Source: Moringa oleifera
Lineage: Eukaryota > Streptophyta > Magnoliopsida > Brassicales > Moringaceae
Length of the DNA: 64,000 nt
Reading direction: 5' to 3'
NCBI GenBank assembly: GCA_021397835.1
Contig: JAJFZO010000028.1
Location: 2,276,001 to 2,340,000, forward strand
Positions within the stretch are counted from its first letter, which is position 1, and each line of letters starts with the position of its first letter. The position numbers and the translations under genes were made by a program. This document shows positions 3,857 through 54,787 of the stretch, piece by piece. The notes below the pieces were generated by a model that was not told the origin of the DNA, searched no databases, and saw nothing but the letters and a program-made list of their open reading frames with translations.

Positions 3857-4599
3857 CTGCATAAGCAAAGCTAGTATCAATGAGACCAAATAGTACCATA
3901 GGTTCATCCAGTTAATGATATATTATTAGCGGAGAAAAAGCATTAACATTATCAATGCCTGATTTTGCATGACAACCTAACCTTTCACAACAATGAAGCA
4001 GTGTCTATGAATGATTAAATATGTCCTGGGTAACAAATGCTTCAGAGGAAGAGAGAGAAAGGCAAGAATGTACTTATAATAGGTAACAAGTTCTTGATTC
4101 TAATCTGAATAGATCATTTACAAGCATTTTTGGCCAATGTAAATCCATATAACTAACAGGTTACTGTGGTATCTCATAATCTATCAACACCAAGATGATT
4201 GAAAATGCCATCAGGTAGGTGGAAGCTGTTGCTGATGGTTTACAGACAGAAGAAGTACACTGTTCATATATGTATGCATGCATACTACTACAAAAATTAT
4301 ACTAAGTGACAATGATTTAATGACAGTTATTCAAATAACTGTCATTAAAAGTTTGATTAACACTTTTAATAGCAGTTCTTCCAAAACTACCATTAAAAAT
4401 AACGCTTTTAATGTTAGTTAAATAAGAACTAATGTTTAAAAAATAGATCATAAAGCCTTTAATGCCAGTTTCTCAAGAACTAACGTTAAAAGCCCTATTT
4501 TTAACACCAGTTCTTGAGGAACTAACGTTAAAGCTCTCATCACTACCAACGTTCACAAGAGAGTAGCTTACACTCTAATCTGGTTCCTCTATCAACTAC

Positions 4600-4755
4600 T
4601 AATCCGACTGCACCTATTGTAGCGGCAACCATCACAACAGCAACGGCTACTTACATTAGCTACTATAAGCAACAACAACTGTTGTAAGCAGCAACAACAA
4701 CTACTGTAAGCAACTGCTGCTGTAAGCAGCAACAGCTGCTGTTGCTGCTTCCACT
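4600..4755. repeat. GCA/CAA-rich low-complexity patch in CACTA element 1
   Basis: Alternating AGCAACAACAACTGTTGTAAGC units form a locally palindromic, trinucleotide-rich patch. A matching patch (GCAGCAGCA, GCTGCTGCTGTTGCTGC) sits at the same relative place in element 2 (48,083-48,150), so it is part of the original element. The minus-strand open frame at 4,592-4,813 (poly Leu/Cys) is a by-product. Confidence 0.7.
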
Positions 4756-5039
4756 TACACACACTTTCTTTATATATATGTTGTCGGTGTCTATTTATAA
4801 GAAAAAGAAACAAAGAAGAAGAAGGAGAAGAGAACTGACGTTAAAATTTGGCCTTTAACGTTAGTTTTGAAAGAACTTGCGTTAAAGTATGGCCTTCAAC
4901 ATCAGTTTTGGAAGAACTGACATTAAAGGCTGCCCATTTTTCTTTTAAGATAAGGATCCTAAATTTGTCTTTAGAACTCGCTAGAACCTTATGCGCAATT
5001 TTTACTCTCTAGGTCGTCCTTCTCCTTTTAACTCTCTGT

Positions 5040-5320
5040 CAAGAAACTAAACCAGTTGACAGCCGCACTGCTTTTTCCTTCTCCTGTTTACTCTCCATCT
5101 AGAAGCAGCTAAGCTAGCTATTGGTAGCACTACTTCTTTTCGGCCCTTTTTTCTTTGATCTTTGTCTAAAAGCAGCTAGACTAGCTGCTGGCAAGCAGTG
5201 GCACTGCCTCTTTTCAGGCCTTTTCCTCTTTGCTCTCCGTCGAGAAGTGGCTAGGCCAACTGCTGGAAGTGGCACTGCCTCTCTCCTTGCTTCTTTTTCT
5301 CTCATTTGTCTCAATCTTCA
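5040..5320. repeat. About 70-bp degenerate tandem repeat in CACTA element 1
   Basis: Roughly four imperfect units share CTGCTGG..AGTGGCACTGCCTCTTTT, a TTTTCCTCTTTG run, then CTCCGTCTAGAAGCAGCTAGGC. Unit starts are near 5,055, 5,118, 5,188 and 5,261. Open frames on both strands here (5,114-5,314 minus and 5,121-5,393 plus) follow from the repeat and do not look like a gene. Confidence 0.65.
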
Positions 5321-5878
5321 CGAAGGCAGCTGCACTCTCCCCATCCATTCGTTCATCTTTGGCATTCAAATATATGTAAATATTTTATTATAGATTCAAA
5401 ATATTTTTACAAAATTTAAGTTTCATAATTTTGATTCAACTCAGTTAATTTTGGTTTAGAAAATGTGTTAAAGATGTATATTATTTTGATAAGTTTTTTA
5501 TTAAATGTGTTTGGTGATTTGTTATTAATTGATGAATTTGAGTTTTTTTTTGTTAGTATATTTGGATGAACATATTTGGTATGAATAGGTCTATATTGAT
5601 GTATTTATTATTTTATAAATATTAAGATTTTTAGATTAATTGATAAATTAATTAGATATTACTTAGATGAATTTATATTTTGATAAATTAATATATATTA
5701 AGTGTAGATAAATTTATGTTTGAATTAATTTTTTTAAGTGAGATTAATTGGTATATTTTGTCAAATTTAATTATATTGATTTTGTAGTTAACATAAATTA
5801 GATGTTACTTAATATATTAGATGTTAAGTAAATATTAACTTTCTGTATTAATTAATTAAGTACTAAATTATATACAGA

Positions 5879-6735
5879 TTTAGCTGCACTTGGCTTAGAA
5901 AAGTGTTTTCTATTTGCTGATCCATCAACATTGTCATATGGAATGTCTGTAAGTATAGACACCCATGCTCGTCACCTAGCCAATAAAATGACAGATCCAT
6001 GTGACGGAAGAGTAGTGATACTTCCTTATAACTTGAGGTAAGTTATAATACTAGTTGAAATTATTAATAGTTTTGTTCACAATATTTTTAAATATTTATT
6101 TTTCATAATGTAGGCAGCACTAGCTGTTGGTGGTTATCGAGCCTCATAATTTTGTGTACAATATTTTTGATCCTTTGAACCTAGTTCTCGTCAAGAATTA
6201 GATAAACTTATGTCCACGTGAGTGAAAATATTTATGTTAATATGTATTTTTTTGTTTACTCTTATGAATATTGTTTATTTTCTATTAACAACTCTTTTAA
6301 ATTGTTCCAAGTTTTCAAAAAATGAAGTAATAGGCGCATTCCTAGGAGTATTCCTGTCAAGGTATGTATATTTAAACCTATATGTAATGTTAGTTTTATT
6401 TATTTTGCAAAATATAACAATTAAATTTTTTTAATGCAGTGTCCACGTCAGCCTTCAAATACTGAGTGTGGATATTATATTATAAATTTTTTAGAGATAT
6501 TATTGATAGACATGATAGAAATATCCTATATGCGAAAATGGTAAGTTTTTAAGCATTTCCTTGTGTAAATACTTAACTAATTAATTGATGTGCTTATTAA
6601 AGGTTTCAATTAGACTAACTATTTTTTTTTTTACAAATACAGTTAATGGACATAGATACTCACACCCAATTGGATATTGATGAAGTTAGAAAGGAGGTTG
6701 GACAATTTCTTTGGAGTGCGACATTAGAAAGTTGA
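5879..6735 (+). pseudogene. Ulp1-like (C48) protease remnant of CACTA element 1
   Basis: Five exons of the C48 cysteine-protease domain often carried by plant CACTA elements are readable. 5,879-6,037: FADPSTLSYGMSVSIDTHAR and VVILPYNLR. 6,114-6,219: HWLLVVIEPHNFVY, with the Trp after the catalytic His changed to TAG. Then an S..KFSKN exon. 6,441-6,540: CPRQPSNTECGYYI with the catalytic Cys. About 6,644-6,735: DIDTHTQLDIDEVRKEVGQF. Exon limits keep GT/AG signals, and the copy in element 2 has the same exon layout. The nonsense codon and a frame change in the Cys exon show it is dead. In the family the domain resembles SUMO proteases; its role in transposition is not settled. Confidence 0.75.
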
Positions 6736-7470
6736 ACCTTGAAGATTTTGTACACATGAACATCATTGGATTTATATAGTTGAATTTTTAGGATTGTGCA
6801 TGATAATGTATATTTAAACTCATATATTTTACATATAGAGTTCAATTATGATATCAATTTTTTTTATTTTATTCATCTTTTATTACTTTTTTGGATTGGA
6901 TCATTTTGAGTGTTTTCAAACATAAAAGAAGTAATGACGGTGTCAATGAGAATGGTATCAAAGTGTATAACAGGAAAATTTTGCTTACAAATTATAAAGA
7001 ATTGTATTGATGTATATGCTTGATGTGGAACAGATGAAAAGTTTTATATATCTAGGTTTTGAATAATCTGGATGTAGAAATTTTGTATTTATTTCAAAAG
7101 TAATAAAAAAAATGCTAAAAATGAACCTTTTTAATGATAGTTCTATTAGAACTGTCATTAAAGGCACCCCCTTTTAAAGACAGTTATATTAGAACTGTCA
7201 TGAAAGGCACCCCCTTTTTAATGACAGTTCTATTAGAACTGTTATGAAAGCCACCCCTTTTTTACGACAATTCTAATAGAACTGTCATGAAAGGCCTCGT
7301 TTTTAACGATAGTTCTATTAAAACTGTCATTAAAGGTACTCCCTTTAACAACAGTTCAAGAACTGTTATTAAAACCTCTTCCCTTTAATGACATGAACAA
7401 AGATGACAGTTTTACCACTATCATTAAAAGCTATTTTTAACTATCATTAAAGTTTTTATTTGTTGTAGTG

Positions 7471-34956: not shown

Positions 34957-36920
34957 AGCTCCCATTAAAGGTGGATGAATACAAATTGATTCTTTGTACT
35001 AACGAGTTTGCTTAATAGAATGAGTGAGTTAAAGTTAGAGAGCCATGAATAAGTTGAGAAATGGTTCTTAAAATGTTTGAGGAGTATTGTTCAAATCTTT
35101 GAAAATTTATTTCAACTTTGATTTGCAAAACTAGTCAACAAACATAAACGAACCTATTTTATGTGTAGTTTTAGTGTCATTATTGTTTTTTGACAGCATC
35201 AAAACAACAAGCTATTACTTCACATAAATTTGAAATAAGGGGTCTTTCAATAATATCAGTATGCAATCTCAGATAGTAAGCTTTTAGGTGACACTGCTTT
35301 GATGGATGGTGTTTCTAGCACATTGGATTAATGGCGTTACCAGATCAAGTGATATAAAGTCCCTTTAGGTGACACCACTTCTCTTGGTAGTGTTTCTGCT
35401 ACACTTGACATTTGACACTCCCATAATATGTAGTGACATTGATTACTTAGCTTATAGACTTTTTATTTTGATATAATTTTAGAAACTAAGTTTATCTTTT
35501 TGAAAATCTTTGTTCTCACAATCAAATAAACTCATGTTTTCAAAATAATTTTTGAAAGAAAGATTTTGATAAGAGATATCCCTTTACATGTTGTGTACAT
35601 GCAACCAATACTTAGGACTAGCTAAATTATGAATAAAGCCTATAGATCTTCTCTTAGGAGCTTGCCTTTTGCTTCTTCAATGTTTGCATAGTTTAATTCT
35701 ACCAGTGACTTTATCTTAATGCACTTGAGATCTTCTTATTGGTTTTTATGAGTACATAACTAAGCTTAGCTACATAAACAAACTTCAACCATTAGTTTTT
35801 ATGACTTGCTGCTGCCAATATATCTCATCAAATTATAAGATTATTGATTTCTTAAAGGTTTTTCAATCACATAAGGCAAGACTTTATGATAACTAAGGAG
35901 TTTCTCATCACTCTTAAGATCCTTCTTTCAATTTGTATGTATATCCCTGATTGTCTAAAATTTTTCAAAGAATTCAATTGTTCTTTCCATGTGGCACATT
36001 CCTAAGCTCTTTAGTACTTTAGTATTGTCATCATACATCTTGATTGGTGCTAAGCTAATCCTAACTATTAGATAAAAGTATTACCTCCCATAAAGACCTT
36101 ATTTTGCTTACAAGTTTGATACTCAACATAAAAAAGAGTGTTATTAATCTTCTTATGTTCTTCCTCAAGAGCAATCTTTTGTTATTCATATATTTTCTTT
36201 ATTCTTTGATCTTTATAACCAAAATTACTTGAGCATTAAGGTTTCCTTCACTTGAACTTAGTTGTGCCAATCTTCTACAAGAACTTCATAGTTGGTAGTC
36301 TAGCCCTTAGATATGTGAATAATGTTGTGATACAAATAAACTTAACTTATGGACTATATACCTGTAAAGAAAATACCATTGCCTAAGAAGATTTTGCCTT
36401 TCTAAAACTCATAAAATTATGAAGTTAAAACAAGAGTATCAAGTCTTTCTTTCATGTCATACTACTATTAAAGGCCATCTAGATATAAAATAAAATGAAA
36501 TGGCATGGTTATGGTTACCACAAACCTATTATGTGCAAAAGATTTTAAGAATACTTTGTTACAAATTTTATAGGGACTAGAAATTATGTCTTCATAATCA
36601 ATCCTCTCTCTTAAACTTTGGTTTAATGGAATCAAATGTAGAAGTGTCATATTCTATCCTAAACTTATTTATAACTAAGAAATAAAAGGGTGACTCACTC
36701 ACAAAATTGTTTCTTTCTCGGTTGCTAGCACATATACATCAAAATTACTTATAGATTTAGAGTTTTCTAGTTGTTATATAGGTTTTTTACGTCAATTCTT
36801 GTTAATGTGAATTCTTTAATTCTTAAATTCATATGGATGATCCAATTGGTCTTTAAAATGGTCGTTGATAAACGTTAAACAGGGTCATTCAGTTGGGATC
36901 ACTTCTTTCATTATGCAATA
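34957..36920 (-). repeat. Segment copy A (copia-like, about 1.96 kb)
   Basis: This segment is repeated, in the same orientation, at 46,534-47,833 plus 54,122-54,787. Minus-strand reading near 36,090-35,960 gives LGLA then IKMYDDNTKVLKSLGMCH, which resembles the stretch before the copia GAG-pre-integrase domain. The frame at 36,650-36,468 (GIDYEDTFSP-like RIDYEDIISSPYK) is only a weak match. It is non-coding now. It keeps an uninterrupted version (36,262-36,285) of the site where CACTA element 2 sits in copy B. Confidence 0.7.
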
Positions 36921-46533: not shown

Positions 46534-47833
46534 AGCTCTCATTAAAGATGGATGAATACAAATTGATTTTTTAGACCAATGAATTTACTCAATAGAATAA
46601 GTGAGTTAAAGTTAGAAAGCCATGAATAAGTTCAGAAATGGTTCTTAAAATGTTCAAGTAGTATTGTTCAAATCTTTGAAAATTCATTTCAACTTTAATT
46701 TGAAAAATTAGTCAACAAACATAAAAGAACCTATTTTATGGGTAGTTTAAAACAATAAACTATGACTCCACATAAATTTGAAAAAAAATGGTCTTTCAGT
46801 GACGTCAATACGCAATCTTAAATAGTGAGCCTTTAGGTGACACTGCTTTGGTGGATGGTGTTTCTAGCACACCAAACAGTGATGCTACTAGATCAAGCGA
46901 TGTAGAGTCCTTTTAGGTGACACCACTTCTCTTGGGGGTGTTTCCGTTACACCTAACAGTTGACTCGACCATAATATGTAGTGACATTAACTCCTTAGCT
47001 TAATTATCAAAACTTTTATTTTTATACAATTTTAGAAATTAAGTTTAAGTTTTTGAAAATATTTTTTCCAATGATCAAATAAACTCATGATTTCAAAATA
47101 ATTTTTTTAAGAAAGATTTTGATAAGAGATATCCCTTTGAATGGTGTGTACATGCAGCTAATACTTTAGGATGAGGTTAAACTATAAATAAAGCCTATAG
47201 GTTTCTCCCTCTAAGAGCTTGTCTTTTGCTTCTTTAATGTTTGCATAATTTAGCTTTGCCAGTTGTCTTCATCTTGATCCATTTACCATCTTTTTATTGG
47301 CTTTTATAAGTATATAACTAAGCTTAGCTACATAACCACACTTCAATCAACAGTTTTTATGACCTGTTACCACCAGTGTATTCCATCATGTTATATGATT
47401 ATTGATTTCTTAAAGGTTTAACAATCTCATGAGGCTAATACTTTATGACAACCAAGGAGTTTATCATCACTTTTACGATCCTTCTTCCAATTTGCTTGTA
47501 TATCCTCAATTGTCTAAAATTATTAAAGAAGTTCAATTATTCCTTCAACGTGGCACATTCTTACATTCTTTAGCACCTTAATATTGTCACCAGACATCTT
47601 GATTGGTACTAAGCTAATCCTAATAACTATTAGATAAAAGTGCTTGCCTCCTATCAAGACTTTATTTTGCTCACAAGTTTAATATTCGACTTAGAAAAGA
47701 TTGTTGCCCATCTTCTAATGTTCTTCCTCATGAACAATCTCTCATTGTTCATAAATTTCCTTTATGCATTGATCTCCATAACCAAAATTAATTAGGCATT
47801 AAAGTTTTCCTAGATTGAACTTAGTTATGCTAA
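46534..47833 (-). repeat. Segment copy B, lower part (copia-like)
   Basis: Aligns along its length with 34,957-36,270. It starts right after the end of CACTA element 4 and stops at the left end of CACTA element 2. Minus-strand reading near 47,640-47,560 gives VPIKMSGDNIKVLKNVRMCH, closer than copy A to the copia pre-integrase consensus. Now non-coding. Confidence 0.75.
47831..47833. other. 3-bp target-site duplication, left (TAA)
   Basis: TAA precedes CACTACTAC and is repeated right after GTAGTG at 54,122-54,124. Three-base duplications are the rule for CACTA elements. Copy A (36,268-36,270, CAA) has a single unduplicated version. Confidence 0.85.
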
Positions 47834-47876
47834 CACTACTACAAAAATTATAATAATTGACACCAATTTAATGACA

Positions 47877-48073
47877 GTTATTCAAAGAACTGTCATTAAA
47901 AGATTTATCAATATTTTTTATGACAGTTATTTCAAAATTGTCATCAAAAGTAATACTTTTAACGTCAATTCCTTAAGAACTGACGTTAAAACATAACATT
48001 TAACGTCAGTTCTAATGGAACTGACGTTAAATGTTAAAACTTTGACTCCAATTCTTCAAGAACTGGTGTCAAA
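47877..48073. repeat. Left subterminal repeat array of CACTA element 2
   Basis: At least four alternating motif pairs: TTTAATGACAGTT, AACTGTCATTAAA, AACTGACGTTAAA and TTTAACGTCAGTT. Such arrays bind the element's own DNA-binding protein in En/Spm; that role here is by analogy. Confidence 0.8.
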
Positions 48074-48191
48074 GGCCAATATTGCAGCAGCATGGGTTGC
48101 TGCTACTTTCCTTGCTGCAGCAATGGCTGCTGCTGTTGCTGCAAGAGGCAGCACCAAGGTCCGGATTGGATGATCATCAACAAAGGAAAGA

Positions 48192-49061
48192 GAGATCAAG
48201 ACTAAACAATTGGATGATCATCAACAGATTAAAGTGATTAAGATAGTCGAGGAGGCTGTAGGGAAAGAATACAATCACCAAGGTTTTGGAGAACAACAAT
48301 TACTGAGAGAGATTGAATCACAAGTCAACACTGCAGCTGTTTTAGAGGAACATGGTTGCTTAGAGATTGAAGAAGTGCAGCAAGAGATTGAGATTGAGAA
48401 CGTGAAAGAGGCCGTAGGAAAAGAATACAATGACCAAGGTTTTCTAGAACAGACATCTAGAGAGGTTGAAGCACAAACCAACATAGAAGCTGTTTCGAAA
48501 GAACACTGGTTCTCAGAAATTGAAGAAGTGAGTGAATCCGATAATCCACTGTAAGAGCAAAACCCGGAGAGAGTTGATTCTGCTGCTTCTATTGACACTG
48601 CACAAGAAAGTGACATAGACCTTCAAGAATCTGATGCTTACACTTATAATGTGCAGCCAAGTATCATGGACCTTAAGGAGCAACCACGCCTACTTTCACA
48701 GGCTGCAAAACTTGAGCTAGAAGCATCCAAATATGGCGAAGCTGGAGAAGAAAATGAAATGAATATTAGTTTTGAAGACAAACCACTAGAAACCCCCAAA
48801 TTTGCTATTTCTCCTGAGAATTTACAGCTTTTGGAAATGGTGGAGTCTGTAAGGGAGGAGTCAGAAAACAAGTTGTTCATGAAGAATGTACTGGGGATTT
48901 CGTTGCTTGTGCTGAGTCTATTTGGGGCTATAGCTTTCATGTTTACAAGGAAAAGGAAATCCTCCTCTACACCAAATGCCATAGCTCCTGTTGAACAGCC
49001 AGTGCTGATGAAGAAACTTGATTACGGTCCAATGTCAATGAGTGCAGAGCACCTGATCTAG
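48192..49061 (+). pseudogene. Captured fragment of a plant one-pass membrane protein
   Basis: One reading frame runs from about 48,192 to a stop at 49,059-49,061, interrupted only by TAA at 48,552-48,554. It begins with two roughly 45-residue tandem repeats (EEAVGKEYNHQGF / KEAVGKEYNDQGF, each ending LEIEEV or SEIEEV). A charged, helical region follows, then a single hydrophobic segment (about 48,886-48,945; GISLLVLSLFGAIAF), then a basic anchor (TRKRKSS) and LDYGPMSMSAEHL. It resembles the C-terminal half of an uncharacterised plant membrane protein family; I cannot name it with certainty. It lies between the GCA-rich patch and the second subterminal array of the element, and these two are adjacent in element 1, so it is foreign to the transposon. 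Near-open frame and few mutations suggest recent capture. Confidence 0.7.
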
Positions 49062-49084
49062 GGGAGGCTCTCTTCAATGAATTG

Positions 49085-49175
49085 GCAGAACTGGCACTGA
49101 AGGCCAGTAACCTTCAACGCCAGTTCTACAGAACTAACGTTGAAGGCCAGGAACGGAACTGGCGTTGAAGGTTGC
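49085..49175. repeat. Internal subterminal-type repeat array of CACTA element 2
   Basis: CTTCAACGCCAGTTC / GAACTGGCGTTGAAGG pairs, the same architecture as the terminal arrays but with a diverged core. The counterpart in element 1 is at 4,835-4,935. Confidence 0.7.
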
Positions 49176-49249
49176 TGGCCTTCAGCTGCTGATAATCTCC
49201 ACGGATTCTTCTGAACTTATACACTTTCCTTGTCTCCAATTATTGCAGC

Positions 49250-49385
49250 TTTCTTCAAAAACCTGAGCATCAAAATGAACTTGAATTTGTCCAGTTGCTA
49301 GTGAAGATTAACTCATATGATCATATTTTGCGTGCAATTACCTGAGCCTACTTGTATGACCAAGAAGTCTTCCTCGAAGCTTCAC
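49250..49385 (+). pseudogene. Possible captured exon of unknown gene
   Basis: After a TTGCAG acceptor-like signal the frame FLQKPEHQNELEFVQLLVK, then INSYDHILRAIT, stop, AYLYDQEVFLEASLM, stop reads like genuine coding sequence with two nonsense codons. I do not recognise the family. It lies between the first captured gene and SWA2 and has no counterpart in element 1. Confidence 0.35.
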
Positions 49386-49521
49386 TGATGTAGGAATTTC
49401 ATGCAGAAGAGAAGAAAAGTATAAATGCTTCTAATGTTTGTGATTGCTATATGAGTTAGTTTTTCTGCTAGTAATTTATGTTCTAATGTTTGTGAAATGG
49501 TGCTATAAATGCTTCGAACAG

Positions 49522-51198
49522 GTTGTACTTCAGCAGCCACCTCAGTATGCCTGTGGTTGTTTATTCCTTCTCTTTGAAGTTCTTAAAGCAAGGCCACCTT
49601 TGTGGTAAGGCTGTTCCTTTTCATATCAACTATATATTCAAGCTGTGTACTATATGATGTCCATTACACTCTTCTTATGCTGGAACCTGGTGCTCCAGAA
49701 CGAGTCTATTGATGAGGATTTTGAACATTTTGAAGATGTCATAGAGGAAAATGATGGTGAACCTAGCGCAAGTGCAGAAAAAGAAGTAGACGATGCCAAA
49801 GTTGCTCATGGTGGTGAAGTTGCTGACTCAGACACTGATTCTTCAGAAGATAAAGAAAACTTGCCTGCCTCTGATTTTGATGATGAAGATGGTACTTCAG
49901 ATGATGGAGAGGAACTTCTTATGAAAGATAACTCAGAAGATCTTCAGCAACTTAAACAAGTATATGATCATAATGGGCACAATCCACAAGTGTCCTCTGC
50001 AAAGACTTTCCTGCCAAGTGGATACGACCCATGGCACAGGGAACCTTCTTACTGGTAATCATCCTCTCAGTAATGTTAGCTTTAGGCATCTCAAGTAGCT
50101 GGCTATAAGATTAATGAAAAGTATCATGATGATAAAACTGCACTACCTATTTTTTCTTAACATTTTCCTTAATTTAATGTGATAGTTATTTGTTGTCTTG
50201 TCCTTCTGTGTTTGAATGAATTAACAGCAATGCAGACCGTGCAAGCTGGTGGGAGCTGATGGTACTTGCTTCACATGTGCACCCATCAGTTGCCACTATG
50301 GCTTGAACTCTTCTTTCAGGGACCAATATCATTTACAATGGTAACCCATTAAATGATCTGTCACTCACTGCTTTCCTAGACAAGTTCATGGAAAAGAAAC
50401 CAAAGGCAAGCACATGGCATGGTGGCTCCCAAATCGAGCCTGCTAAAAAGGTTAGTTTTCCATTTTTGTTGCCCTTATTTCTCTCACACCTTCATTGTTA
50501 GCTGTTCTGGATTAACAAATTCCTCAAATGTCTTGCTAAATTGCTTTTCTATGTCCTTAGCTTGACATATCCAACCAATTGATTGGGCAAGAGATTCTCT
50601 CCTTGGCTGAAGCAGACGTGCCTCTAAAGGATCTTGTCTTCCATAAGTTCTATGTGAATAAAATGAATTCATCGAAGAAATCAAAAATGAAGAAAAAGAA
50701 GAAGTTAACAGAGGATGAGGCTGCTGAAGAGCTGTTTGGAGTGGATGGTGTTGATGATGTAGATGGTGGTGATGAGAGTGATAATGAAGAGATCGAGAAG
50801 ATATTGGATTCTACTGATCCTTCCCTGGAGGCAGAACGTGACTATGATTACGACGATCTGGACCAAGTTGCCAATGAAGAAGATGATGATTTGGTTGGTA
50901 ATGTCAGTGATGGAGAGATTGACATCGCCTCAGATTATGCTGAAGGAGAAGATTTTGATGCTGCCATCAATGATGACAACACTGACGACGATGACATGGA
51001 TCCTGTGGATGTGAATGATGTTAGTGATGATGAGGATGAGTCCAATAAGAGAAAAAGAAAACGGAAGAAGACATGAGCATCCCCCTTTGCAAGTCTTGAA
51101 GATTATGAGCAATTGATAAATGAAGACAGTTCAAGGAAAGAGTCAACAGGAAAGGGAAAGCCTGGGACTCTAAAGAAGAAGAAGAATCGATCATCCGA
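49522..51198 (+). pseudogene. Captured C-terminal half of SWA2 / CEBPZ (Noc1-Mak21 family)
   Basis: Four exons with introns match plant SLOW WALKER2, a nucleolar CBF/Mak21-family protein needed for 60S ribosome-subunit maturation and for gametophyte cell cycles in Arabidopsis. 49,522-49,604: LQQPPQYACGCLFLLFEVLK. 49,683-50,054: VLQNESIDEDFEHFEDV, an acidic stretch and FLPSGYDPWHREPSY. 50,228-50,450: NADRASWWELMVLASHVHPS, then NPLNDLSLTAFLDKFMEKKP. 50,561-51,198: LIGQEILSLAEADVPLKDLV, KMNSSKKSKMKKKKK, a long Asp/Glu-rich tail, KRKRKRKK, stop, ASPFASLEDYEQL. Premature stops lie at 50,304-50,306 (TGA for Arg) and 51,074-51,076, and the acceptor of the second exon reads TG instead of AG. Retained introns show DNA-level capture, not retroposition. 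The N-terminal CBF domain core was not captured. Confidence 0.87.
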
Positions 51199-51942
51199 GT
51201 GAGTATTAATGAGCTGGCTGTGTCCCTGAAACAGGGGAGATTTCTTATACCGCATTCCAGATTTAGTCAACTTCCAATTTTGTTTCATTCATCAATCAAA
51301 AGCTTGTAGATACATTTTGTTATGTTATATTACTAAATATCAACTATAGCATTCTTGTTTTAATGTCTGATGTTTGCAATGTGTTTCCTATTTGATGTCT
51401 ATGTATCAGATGCTCTCCCAAGCAGTCTGTCATTTTTCTAGTAACCAAATGATGTTGGGCTCACCTGTTAGAATTAATACCCATCTGTCAAGTTTCCCAC
51501 TTCCAAAGAAGTTCCTAGCACTTGTAGCACTTGCAGCCATATCTTTACAGTCTCAACAAGCTAGTTAAGTGGATACACATCAACCTGCAAATGAATCATT
51601 AGATGACATGCTTTTCTGGCTCTGGATTCTACCTGTCCACAGTTACTTAAATGGAAGATGATCTAAAAGGATTATGAAGCAGAAGGGAGTGAACTCATAA
51701 CATTCTAGGAATCTACATTACACCTGGGAACACAAGTTGAGATTCTGAGAATTTACACTACACTACACAACAGAATGACCAATGGGAGTACATTAATTTC
51801 TTCAATAATCCAAACATGAGTTATTAAAAGCTTAGTAGGCAAGAACTCTCCCTAATCTAATTGAACTACACAATTCAAGTCAAGTTCAAGTAACATATCT
51901 GAGCCAACTTGCTCTCTGCAAAATTTTTCCCATGGTTTTCCT
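51199..51942. other. Unassigned interval inside CACTA element 2
   Basis: It probably holds SWA2 intron sequence (from the GTGAGT donor at 51,199) and 3' flanking sequence of the small heat-shock gene. The frame at 51,374-51,568 has no recognised domain. Confidence 0.4.
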
Positions 51943-52168
51943 TCAAGAAACAGTAATTTCAACAGTCTTAGGCTTTGGTGGTGGAGGAAGCTTCTCCACA
52001 ACCACAGTTAAGACCCCATTCTCACATTTGGCCGTCACTGCAGAAGCATTAGCATTTTCAGGCAATCTGAACTTCCTCATCATCTTCTGGACTGCCCTCA
52101 TCTCCAGCCTGATGTACTTGCAACCTTCCTCCTCACCTTCCTCGCGCTTCCTCGATTGTAACTTGTAG
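51943..52168 (-). pseudogene. Captured C-terminal half of a cytosolic class II small heat-shock protein
   Basis: On the minus strand the frame reads [20 protein letters not shown], then [40 protein letters not shown] and TVEITVS-stop (stop at 51,943-51,945). This is the second half of the alpha-crystallin domain plus the C-terminal extension; the GVLTV motif and the PPP-PK tail are typical of cytosolic class II sHSPs, which hold unfolding proteins under heat stress. The N-terminal arm and first strands are missing, and the upstream part of the open frame (to 52,215) is unrelated sequence. No stop or frameshift is visible in the captured part. It points against the element's own genes, so transcription of the element would produce its antisense. 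Confidence 0.85.
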
Positions 52169-52380
52169 TACATTGAATAAATGGTAGAAACAGAGGTTAG
52201 CAACACCAGCTGCATCTAACAAGACAATATTAGGCCACATGCTCTCAAAAACATGTTTACTCTCACTGGTCCTAAACATGTATCTCCATGAGAACAGAAC
52301 AAGCAGCTTACACAGATCCAATTACCACTAACTTAAAACCACAACTAGGAAACCTTTTAACACTTCCTTATGTCCTTCAG

Positions 52381-53418
52381 CACTACTGATACAACAGCGT
52401 CTAGATCAGTGAAGTTTACTAAATTATCTACTCTAGTTAAATTGTACAATTTGAAGGCAAAATATGGTTGGTCCGATCAAAGCTTCAATGATCTTTTAAA
52501 TTTGATTGCCGAAATTTTGCCTGATAATAATAAAATGTCTACATCCATGTATGATGCCAAGAAAACATTGAATGCATTAGGGATGGAGTATCAAAAGATT
52601 CATGACAATGTTGACGTATTTGCTGATCCGTCAACATTATCATATGGAATGTCTATAAGTATAGACACTCAAGCTCGTCACTTAGCCAATAGAATGATGG
52701 ATCCATGTGACAAAGGAGTAGTGATATTTCCTTATAACTTGAGGTAAGTTATAATACTAATTAAAATTATTAATAGATTTGTTTAACATATTTTTTACAT
52801 TTATTTTTCATAATGTAGGTAGCACTGGTTGTTGGTGGTTGTCGAGCCTTGTAATTTTGTGTACAGTGTTTTTGATCCTTTGAACCATGGTTCTCGTCAA
52901 GAACTAGATCAACTTATGTCCACGTAAGTGAAAATATTTTCATTTATATTAGTATATATTTTTTCTTACTCTTAATAATATTAATTATTTTCTATTAGCA
53001 GTTCTTTTAAATTGTTTCAAGTTTTCAAAGAATCAAGCAATAGGTGCATTCCTAGGAGTATTCCTGCTAAGGTATATATATTTAAACCTATATATGATGT
53101 TAGTTTTATTTATTTTGGAAAATATAATAATGATAAATTTTTAATGCAGTGTCCACATCAGCCTTCAAATACTGAGTGTGGATATTATATTATGAAATGT
53201 TTAAGGGACATCATTGATAGACGTGATAGAAATATCTCATATGCAAAAATGGTAAGTTTTTAATCATTTGCTTTTGTAAATACTTAAGTAATTAATTGAT
53301 GTGTGTATTAAAAATTTTAATTGGACTAACCTTTTTTTTTTTTTTTGAAATATAGTTAATGGACATAGATACTTACACCCAATCGGATATTGATGAAGTT
53401 AGAAAGGAGGTTGGATAA
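52381..53418 (+). pseudogene. CACTA tnp2-N / Ulp1 protease fusion remnant
   Basis: The first exon (52,381-52,743) starts with a tnp2 N-terminal block (LVKLYNLKAKYGWSDQSFND, then LPDNNKMSTSMYDAKKTLNA and LGMEYQKIHD) and passes in frame into the Ulp1 region (FADPSTLSYGMSISIDTQAR, VVIFPYNLR). In intact elements these are separated by the tnp2 core and DUF4216/DUF4218, so an internal deletion has fused them. Further exons: 52,819-52,923 (HWLLVVVEPCNFVYSVFDPL, His and Asp of the triad, but preceded by TAG for Gln), 52,999-53,071 (FKLFQVFKESSNRCIPRSI), 53,150-53,251 (QPSNTECGYYIMKCLRDIID, catalytic Cys) and 53,356-53,418 (MDIDTYTQSDIDEVRKEVG, stop). GT/AG signals are preserved. Confidence 0.82.
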
Positions 53419-53820
53419 TTTCTTTGGAGTTCCATATTAGAAAGTTGAATCTTGAAGATTTTTGTACACATGACCATTATTGAATTTATATAGTTGAATT
53501 TTTAGGATTGTGTAATATTTTAACTTATGTATTGTACATATAGAGTTTACTTATAACATCAAATATTAGTGATCTTTTGTTTTGTTTGTCTCTTATTACT
53601 TTTTTGGATTAGATTATTTTGAATGTTTTCAGATATGAAAGAAGTAATGACGATCTCTGTTAGAATGGTATTGAAGTGTATAACATAAAAATTTTGGTTG
53701 CATATATATTGTGAAGAATTGTATTGATGTATATGGATGATGTGAAAATAGGTTTTGGATAATTTGAATTTTATTTATTTTGAAATAAATACAAAAAATA
53801 CCTTTAATGGGTATCCCCTT

Positions 53821-54100
53821 TTAACGACAGTTCCAACAGAATTGTCGTTAAAGGGTACCCTTTTTAATGAGAGTTTCGTTGGAACTGTCGTTGAAGAGTA
53901 TCCCCCTTTAACGACAGTTCTGTTTGGAATTGTCGTTGAAGGGTACCCCCCCTTTAATGACAGTTCTGTTTGAACTGTCATCAAAGGCACCCCCTTTAAT
54001 GACAGTTCAAGAAATGTCATTAAAAACTCTCCCTTTTAATGACATGAACAAAGATGACACTTTTACAAGTGTCATTAAAAACCATTTTTAACTGTCATTA
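53821..54100. repeat. Right subterminal repeat array of CACTA element 2
   Basis: Alternating TTTAACGACAGTTC and GAACTGTCGTTAAAGG motifs with CACCCCC spacers, ending TTTAACTGTCATTAAAGC before the terminus. The right array of element 1 (7,105-7,455) has the same plan, including the CCCC spacers. Open frames at 53,755-53,973 and 53,775-54,020 arise from the repeats. Confidence 0.85.
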
Positions 54101-54121
54101 AAGCTTTTATTTGTAGTAGTG

Positions 54122-54787
54122 TAATCTTCTACAAGAAGTTCATACCATGTAGCCTAGCCCACAGGTACATGAATAATTCTTTGATACTAAAACTTAACTT
54201 ATCGTCCTATATACTTGTCAAGAAAATAGTATTGCTTAAGAAATTTTTGCCTTACTAAAACTCATAAATTTGTGAAATTAAAATCAGAGTATCAAGTGTT
54301 TGTTTTATGTCACACTACTATTAAGCACAAATTATTTCAACAAGTCACTCAAATCTAGACTAAAATGAAATGGCATGGTAATGGTTACTATAAATCTATT
54401 ATGTGCTAAAGATTTTAAGAATACTTTGTTACAAATTTTATAAGGACTAGAAATTATGTCTTTATAATCAATCCTCTCTTTTTAATATTGGTTTGATGGA
54501 ATCAAATGTAGAAGTTTCATATTTTATCAAAAACCTATTTATAACCAGGAAACAAATGGATGACTCACTCATAAAATCTTTTCTTCCTTGGTGGCTAGCA
54601 CATGTACATCAAAGCTGGTTATTGATTTCAAGTTTTCTAATTGTTATACAGGTTTTTATGTCAATTTTTGTTGACATGAATTCTTTAATTCTTGAATCCA
54701 CATGGATGATCCAATTGGTTTTTAAAATGGCCTTTGACAATGCTTTAAACAGGTCATTCAATTGGGATTATTTCCTTTTACTATACA
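54122..54787 (-). repeat. Segment copy B, upper part (copia-like)
   Basis: Continues the alignment with copy A (36,268-36,920), starting with the duplicated TAA. Both parts of copy B together equal the length of copy A to within a few bases. Similarity to copy A ends near 54,787, where CACTA element 5 sequence begins. Confidence 0.75.

Follow-up and report, generated by a model that had tools for sequence, protein, structure and literature searches.

The element described here occupies positions 47834–54121 (6,288 bp) of a 64,000-nucleotide stretch of the Moringa oleifera genome (C572:2276001–2340000), which as a whole is called the window. Coordinates of the element and its parts are window positions unless a contig is named. 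With a probability of about 85%, we regard this element as a Pack-CACTA element, a CACTA (En/Spm) transposon that is non-autonomous and has lost internal sequence, and whose cargo was acquired in at least three capture steps from loci on contigs C549, C565 and C522. As judged by sequence comparison, the host DNA in the element is assigned to these three loci and to pieces of four genes, which is the gene-fragment content of a Pack-CACTA element. The evidence consists of the ends of the element, its target-site duplication (TSD), the empty site, the parent loci, capture edges shared among sister copies, later deletions, the transposase of relatives and the neutral decay of the first cargo.

An earlier reading, made from the sequence alone, had proposed a multi-gene Pack-type CACTA element with pieces of at least three unrelated genes, namely a membrane-protein fragment, four exons of SWA2 and an antisense half of a small heat-shock protein (sHSP) gene. 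All of these pieces are real, and with a transporter fragment that had been missed the number of genes rises to four. There are indeed three source loci; the genes themselves were not all captured independently, since SWA2 and the sHSP gene are neighbours at C522 and represent one capture.

Ends, target site and transposase

The element starts with CACTACTACAAAAATT and ends with ATTTGTAGTAGTG. Its 5' terminal inverted repeat (TIR), CACTACTACAAA, lies at 47834–47845 (plus strand) and recurs in inverted form at 54110–54121 (minus strand). Comparison of the paired ends places a TAA duplication directly outside them, at 47831–47833 and 54122–54124. The ends and the TAA duplication of the sequence-only reading were therefore exact. 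In the family, nine pairs of ends were kept from a list of 17; the remaining eight were dropped, one partner being a chance or older match, and one of these eight rows is the older element at 4283–7470. An exact 3-bp TSD is present in seven of the nine copies having both ends (taa in the window copy and in sister copy A; gta, acg, aga, aag and tat).

The genome searched is an assembly of 279.5 Mb in 669 contigs. When the two 150-bp flanks of the element were joined and used as a query, 24 matches were obtained, 17 of which span the joint with 79–87% identity, all on C572 or C75. Two of the others are the element's own flanks, and five end 13 bases beyond the joint and were not counted. Since the joined flanks match many places on C572 and C75, the element is inserted in a dispersed repeat, 17 other copies of which are uninterrupted at that point. 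One uninterrupted copy lies in the window itself (36123–36421, 79% identity), and the 16 other such places are on C572 and C75.

Subterminal hairpin arrays are located at 47867–48075 on the 5' side and at 53810–54103 on the 3' side. Their DNA fold is far more stable than background (z = −13.5 for 47957–48075 and z = −10.9 for 53815–53960), and the same holds for an internal hairpin of the subterminal type at the boundary between the first and the second cargo (49086–49186, z = −9.3); a cargo control in the same test gave z = +0.45. CACTA TIRs, a 3-bp TSD, subterminal direct and inverted repeats and, within the family, a tnp2-type transposase (PF02992) are all found, as is typical of CACTA (En/Spm) elements. 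The segment between the 5' hairpins and the first cargo (48080–48165) is GCTGCT-rich and common to sister copies.

The window copy itself lacks the PF02992 domain. Left over are a remnant of the tnp2 transposase open reading frame (ORF) from outside the lost domain (52400–52604, plus strand) and an Ulp1-type (Peptidase_C48) ORF remnant (52616–53430, plus strand), which is common to sister copies; lack of a working transposase is what characterizes a non-autonomous Pack-CACTA copy. The tnp2 and Ulp1 remnants had already been noticed from the sequence. The former matches the transposase ORF of the relatives on C80, C36 and C642 with 96.6–97.0% identity, while the latter is a weak assignment, as its PF02902 match (E = 0.015) fails the Pfam cut-off.

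PF02992 flanked by family ends occurs at least at C80 (837-aa open frame), C642 (682 aa) and C36 (551 aa), with a stop-free domain match. Among cargo carriers it is present on C518, on C612 and at C519:626155 and C519:572067, stop-free only in C612, and at C659 it was seen with just a 5' family end. Gene pieces are also carried by elements that hold an intact or decayed transposase gene. Because the cargo also rides in such transposase-bearing elements, we read the window copy as a product of later deletion. C642 retains a remnant of the C549 piece. C80 and C36 (4.9 and 3.9 kb read) are without the window copy's cargo and have a second hairpin block about 0.8–1 kb before the transposase ORF. 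In the family searches, 40 of 719, 40 of 730, 150 of 1535 and 40 of 179 candidates were scored; all copy numbers are lower bounds, and little weight attaches to a locus not being among those scored.

Source loci of the cargo

The first cargo (48181–49089, plus strand) is a 909-bp piece of a transmembrane-protein gene with 96.7% identity to C549:4271800–4272708. In the parent this interval sits inside an uninterrupted 810-aa open frame, whose protein relatives are plant 'transmembrane' or uncharacterised proteins (the five best are 37–44% identical and come from rosids, which suggests a rosid as the source). The piece in the element contains two in-frame stops. Across five copies, changes found only in the copies amount to 53 nonsynonymous and 11 synonymous ones, and six are stops; the neutral expectation is 73% nonsynonymous (p = 0.09, three sites with mixed sharing patterns being left out). 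The nine differences common to all five copies are three nonsynonymous and six synonymous ones. A remnant of 71–80 bp of the C549 gene (48788–48864) was also detected at 13 further loci with 92–96% identity and without any other cargo match; our guess is that these loci are deletion derivatives of the family.

The second cargo, the fragment missed earlier, is an antisense piece at about 49186–49414 (minus strand) that matches C565:2082530–2082754 with 96.5–97% identity. The parent candidate (C565:2081030–2084254) encodes a PTR2/POT-domain transporter on the opposite strand (PF00854, E = 1.5e-43 and 1.1e-36), a family known in plants as NRT1/PTR, or NPF. In sister copies the NPF piece extends about 405 bp further to the right than in the window copy, and on C532 an unbroken match to C565 of at least 2.1 kb lies between family ends at 3019444 (5') and 3027846 (3').

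The third cargo (49443–52402) is one stretch of C522:1210262–1213244, with an identity of 96.1% in BLAST and 98.0% without gaps. Its left portion (49443–51202, plus strand) is the 3' part of SWA2/MAK21 (CEBPZ), SWA2 and CEBPZ being the plant and animal names of the MAK21-like gene. Mapping against the parent gives exons a (49522–49604), b (49683–50054), c (50228–50450) and d (50561–51202, to the end of the open frame), all on the plus strand; joined, they match MAK21 in the PDB with E = 3.9e-24. Six of the seven internal intron borders retain GT or AG. At exon b the parent's acceptor AG is TG here, and exons c and d each contain an in-frame TGA, that of exon d at 51074. On the minus strand follows the remainder of exon 2 of an sHSP gene (51943–52152; PF00011, E = 1.5e-13); the 5' part of this exon is gone through a deletion of about 38 bp. 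It had been taken for a class II gene, which must be corrected: the best named relatives of the spliced sHSP are 17.4 kDa class III proteins (HSP17.4-CIII type), and just one of 120 listed names (Euphorbia peplus) is class II.

Upstream of the captured stretch, C522 has exons that encode the CBF/Mak21 domain (PF03914; E = 6.9e-9, 8.3e-5); the other sHSP exon lies downstream. Since the two genes are convergent (tail-to-tail) neighbours at C522, SWA2 exons a–d, the intergenic DNA and the antisense sHSP exon 2 are assigned, from this collinearity, to a single capture. Separate captures of SWA2 and the sHSP gene were considered and ruled out, as the two are contiguous at C522. Both present limits of the C522 piece lie in introns, as judged from the ORFs.

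The sequence-only reading had held that parents lying adjacent in the same order would speak for a segmental duplication. This came true by half, because SWA2 and the sHSP gene are adjacent and collinear at C522. A segmental duplication, or an ordinary rearrangement flanked by chance by CACTA ends, is nevertheless extremely improbable and was rejected: there are three unrelated source loci, the TSD is exact and the site uninterrupted at 17 loci, and the same cargo edges recur in sisters at unrelated positions, several of them with a TSD of their own. The parents outside the element, which the earlier reading had proposed to search for, were found in the same assembly at 96–97% identity. Together with several sister copies in that assembly, they exclude chance as an explanation.

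The element might also have been kept for a function, with an antisense or chimeric cargo transcript that regulates SWA2, HSP17.4-CIII or the NPF gene, or with a new protein encoded by the cargo. The largely retained intron borders and the antisense orientation of the sHSP exon relative to the SWA2 exons would suit such a role, and the cargo of the soybean element Tgm-Express1 is spliced into chimeric mRNAs according to the portion of the account considered here (PMC1947982). We consider this improbable, given that the C549 piece and SWA2 exons c and d contain stops, that exon b has lost its acceptor, that copy-specific changes in the C549 piece are unconstrained and that the element is inserted inside a dispersed repeat. 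In view of the stops, the lost acceptor and these unconstrained changes, a functional coding cargo in particular is not supported. The present role of the element is likely that of a passive passenger; it may also act on the parents through antisense or small RNAs.

Shared edges and later deletions

Other copies of the element, whose existence the earlier reading had asked about, occur as several sisters in the same assembly. The right edge of the C522 piece is 1213240 in eight of them: A (C572:2383998), B (C572:3036899), C (C532:946943), D (C519:1717478), J (C519:576857), K (C612:635966), L (C519:631284) and M (C518:4836438). To the left, the piece reaches back to 1210262 in the window copy and B; it stops at 1210639 in D, J, K and M and at 1211979 in A, C and L. 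Moreover, D, J and K are without the C522 interval 1211545–1212716. Most copies retain the right edge of the C549 piece, with left or internal losses of varying extent, and M has just a small inverted remnant. Copies E, G and P carry the first two cargoes without the third in the stretches read; in E, a hairpin is followed directly by downstream sequence where the third cargo would sit. The simplest reading of these comparisons would be successive captures, followed by independent internal deletions.

An 18-bp local duplication (48165–48182, plus strand), a copy of 48209–48226, marks the left edge of the first cargo. All ten copies that keep this edge in the stretches read have the duplication; the edge is missing there from D, J, K, M, N, O and others. 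Because the duplication is common to all ten, it suggests one founding capture of the C549 piece.

Copy B (C572:3029240–3036899, TSD gta) is the only other copy read with the arrangement of the window copy. Over 6,269 aligned positions B shares 97.3% identity with the window copy, and it carries about 1.15 kb of extra transposon sequence and a small SWA2 duplication. With a rate of 7e-9 per site per year, the divergence of the two copies would date back roughly 2 million years. Copies at unrelated loci, including B, together with partial sisters elsewhere, document the mobility expected of a Pack-CACTA family. A stretch of about 155 kb (C572:2270038–2424741) contains at least four 5' ends of the family, three of them in the same orientation, a pattern that local hopping would produce.

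In the window copy and in B, the junction 49414/49443 is a later deletion that was sealed by a 28-bp filler (49415–49442, plus strand). The filler was copied from two spots in a SWA2 intron, 40–70 bp inside the junction, in parts of 14 bp (exact) and 12 bp; matches of equal length occurred in none of 5000 shuffles and in none of 5000 random 28-mers from the window. B has the same filler with two base differences. We considered the filler as a signature of a capture edge and rejected this, since sisters A, C, L and others retain more of the NPF piece, which makes the site a later deletion junction.

Altogether, cargo in the family matches eight loci. A and C contain a piece of a myo-inositol-phosphate synthase (MIPS) gene (PF07994, E = 9.4e-30) that matches C32:1579095, a locus where more of the MIPS gene is present and no family end was seen. 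D carries a gene with a GATase domain (PF00117, E = 2.3e-16), read as CTP synthase, that matches C563:5805100, and H and I carry an IDM1-type piece (PF23209, E = 4.2e-17) that matches C518:3660110. The first kilobase of the extra cargo in E, also present in F, matches C49:1585127 and C12:2735144 with its two halves. At 97–98% identity, the loci on C563, C518, C49 and C12 are probably the parents. P contains an IQ-motif gene (PF00612, E = 3.9e-8) and shares 705 bp of its neighbourhood with E. After the hairpin block, and ahead of the transposase ORF, several sisters (E, G, P and others) have a tandem array whose units are offset by about 179 bp; the MIPS cargo carried by A and C begins in this array, not at a hairpin.

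The window also holds an older related CACTA element (4283–7470) with degenerate ends TACTACTACAAA and CACTACAACAAA. Its flanks are gca and ata, without a target duplication, and 1.6 kb of it aligns to the 3' part of the main element with 80% identity. A search of a plasmid collection gave no match.

Capture edges and routes of acquisition

We propose that forebears of the element picked up the cargo in the region that separates the transposase gene from the 5' subterminal hairpins. These forebears, still equipped with transposase, would have captured host DNA by repair synthesis. Repair of an excision gap may stall at the subterminal hairpins, jump to an ectopic gene template and rejoin at another hairpin unit, and a slip during template switching could have produced the 18-bp local duplication at one capture edge. 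In the lineage of the window copy, a later deletion was closed with copied filler, and this copy was presumably moved in trans by the transposase of a relative.

In a fixed scan, five of the eight mapped capture edges lie at most 5 bp from a subterminal hairpin unit (binomial p = 0.003). These are the right edges of the C549 and C522 pieces and the left edges of the NPF piece, the IDM1 piece and the C49-matching piece; as background, 14.9% of the 5'-region positions in three transposase-bearing relatives are as close. A count of six of eight edges (p = 0.0002) was dropped, since the right edge of the NPF piece had been counted by eye and the scan gives 18 bp. A tie between capture edges and hairpin units is our hypothesis and not a result. 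It is rather unlikely that the 5' hairpin blocks before the transposase gene form a cargo bay of docking sites for repair synthesis, where transposase-bearing elements would shuffle gene pieces from many loci (eight matching ones in this family) and Pack copies would arise as their deletion products.

Several points weigh against the proposed history. Three of the eight edges fail the hairpin test (C549 left, 105 bp; NPF right, 18 bp; MIPS left, ~178 bp). The test was defined post hoc on eight edges that are maybe non-independent, and two of the five near-hairpin edges were placed at the start of the query and not on a fetched parent. The filler is located at a later deletion junction, away from the capture edges, and no copy read preserves the left edge that the C522 capture first had. 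Two of the nine family copies with both ends, on C627 and C518, have no exact TSD. Furthermore, pairwise dN/dS between the C549 piece and its parent is 0.20–0.62, i.e. below 1. Because the copy-private changes are unconstrained, we read this low ratio as constraint on the parent's branch, with drift in the copies.

Finally, hairpin units stand on both sides of the cargo, as remnants of a second element's ends could give. The same element might have gained its cargo by tandem insertion, in which two family members flank a host segment, lose their inner ends and are mobilised as a whole. This model has been published, as far as the consulted parts of the sources go (PMC8903248, PMC13317346), and the at least four family 5' ends within ~155 kb of C572 demonstrate that neighbouring insertions happen. 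Flanking hairpins and parents without family ends fit repair-synthesis capture, but the flanking hairpins fit tandem insertion as well. Against the latter, no family ends turned up in the sequence read at the parent loci (C549, 3.9 kb; C565, 3.2 kb; C522, 15.5 kb); the C522 stretch has six matches to the end pattern with two mismatches, none of which extends as a family end. The second hairpin block is already present in C80 and C36, which are without this cargo in the stretches read, so that a second element is unnecessary. The 18-bp duplication at the left edge of the C549 piece suggests template switching, and three source loci would demand repeated rounds of tandem insertion. Tandem insertion is a serious possibility, although we do not favour it.

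That CACTA elements capture several genes is established, and we claim no priority for hairpin-linked or two-gene capture. Our literature search found no paper that joins at least four of the subjects CACTA, gene capture, filler DNA, template switching and gap repair. The En/Spm-related Tpn1 family of morning glory reportedly also captures host genes, as described by Kawasaki and Nitasaka in 2004.

The sequence-only reading had described multi-gene capture as known in a few plants, and it is documented in the sections considered of two papers (PMC1947982, PMC8903248). Tgm-Express1 of soybean, a CACTA element of 5.7 kb, contains parts of five unrelated genes, exons as well as introns; according to the same excerpt, it lies in a gene intron and its cargo is spliced, whereas the window copy carries other genes and lies in a dispersed repeat (PMC1947982). 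The Pack-CACTA elements within the Pack-TYPE group likewise have CACTA TIRs, TSDs, host gene pieces and several source loci per element, and in the part of the survey considered, those of maize account for the greatest number of loci (PMC8903248). Compared with what that part covers, parents, graded deletions, transposase-bearing carriers and empty sites are resolved here within a single family, one of whose cargoes covers two neighbouring genes (PMC8903248). The survey, in the same part, classes elements that match transposase as autonomous, while the window copy retains transposon ORF remnants (PMC8903248). In CACTA elements of Chenopodium, captured fragments likewise sit on the 5' side, ahead of the transposase ORF, and the authors of that study suggest capture-prone regions; the fragments are smaller, and the excerpt of the account considered makes no link to subterminal hairpins (PMC8978399).

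A single 280-Mb genome holds carriers with the transposase domain, deletion stages, sources at 96–98% identity, shared edges and empty sites. Because all stages are found in one genome, much of the order of events is readable, and docking at hairpins becomes testable across relatives. The family thereby bears on how DNA transposons acquire fragments of genes. Moreover, two neighbouring genes can travel as one piece, where fragment-by-fragment annotation would count two captures.

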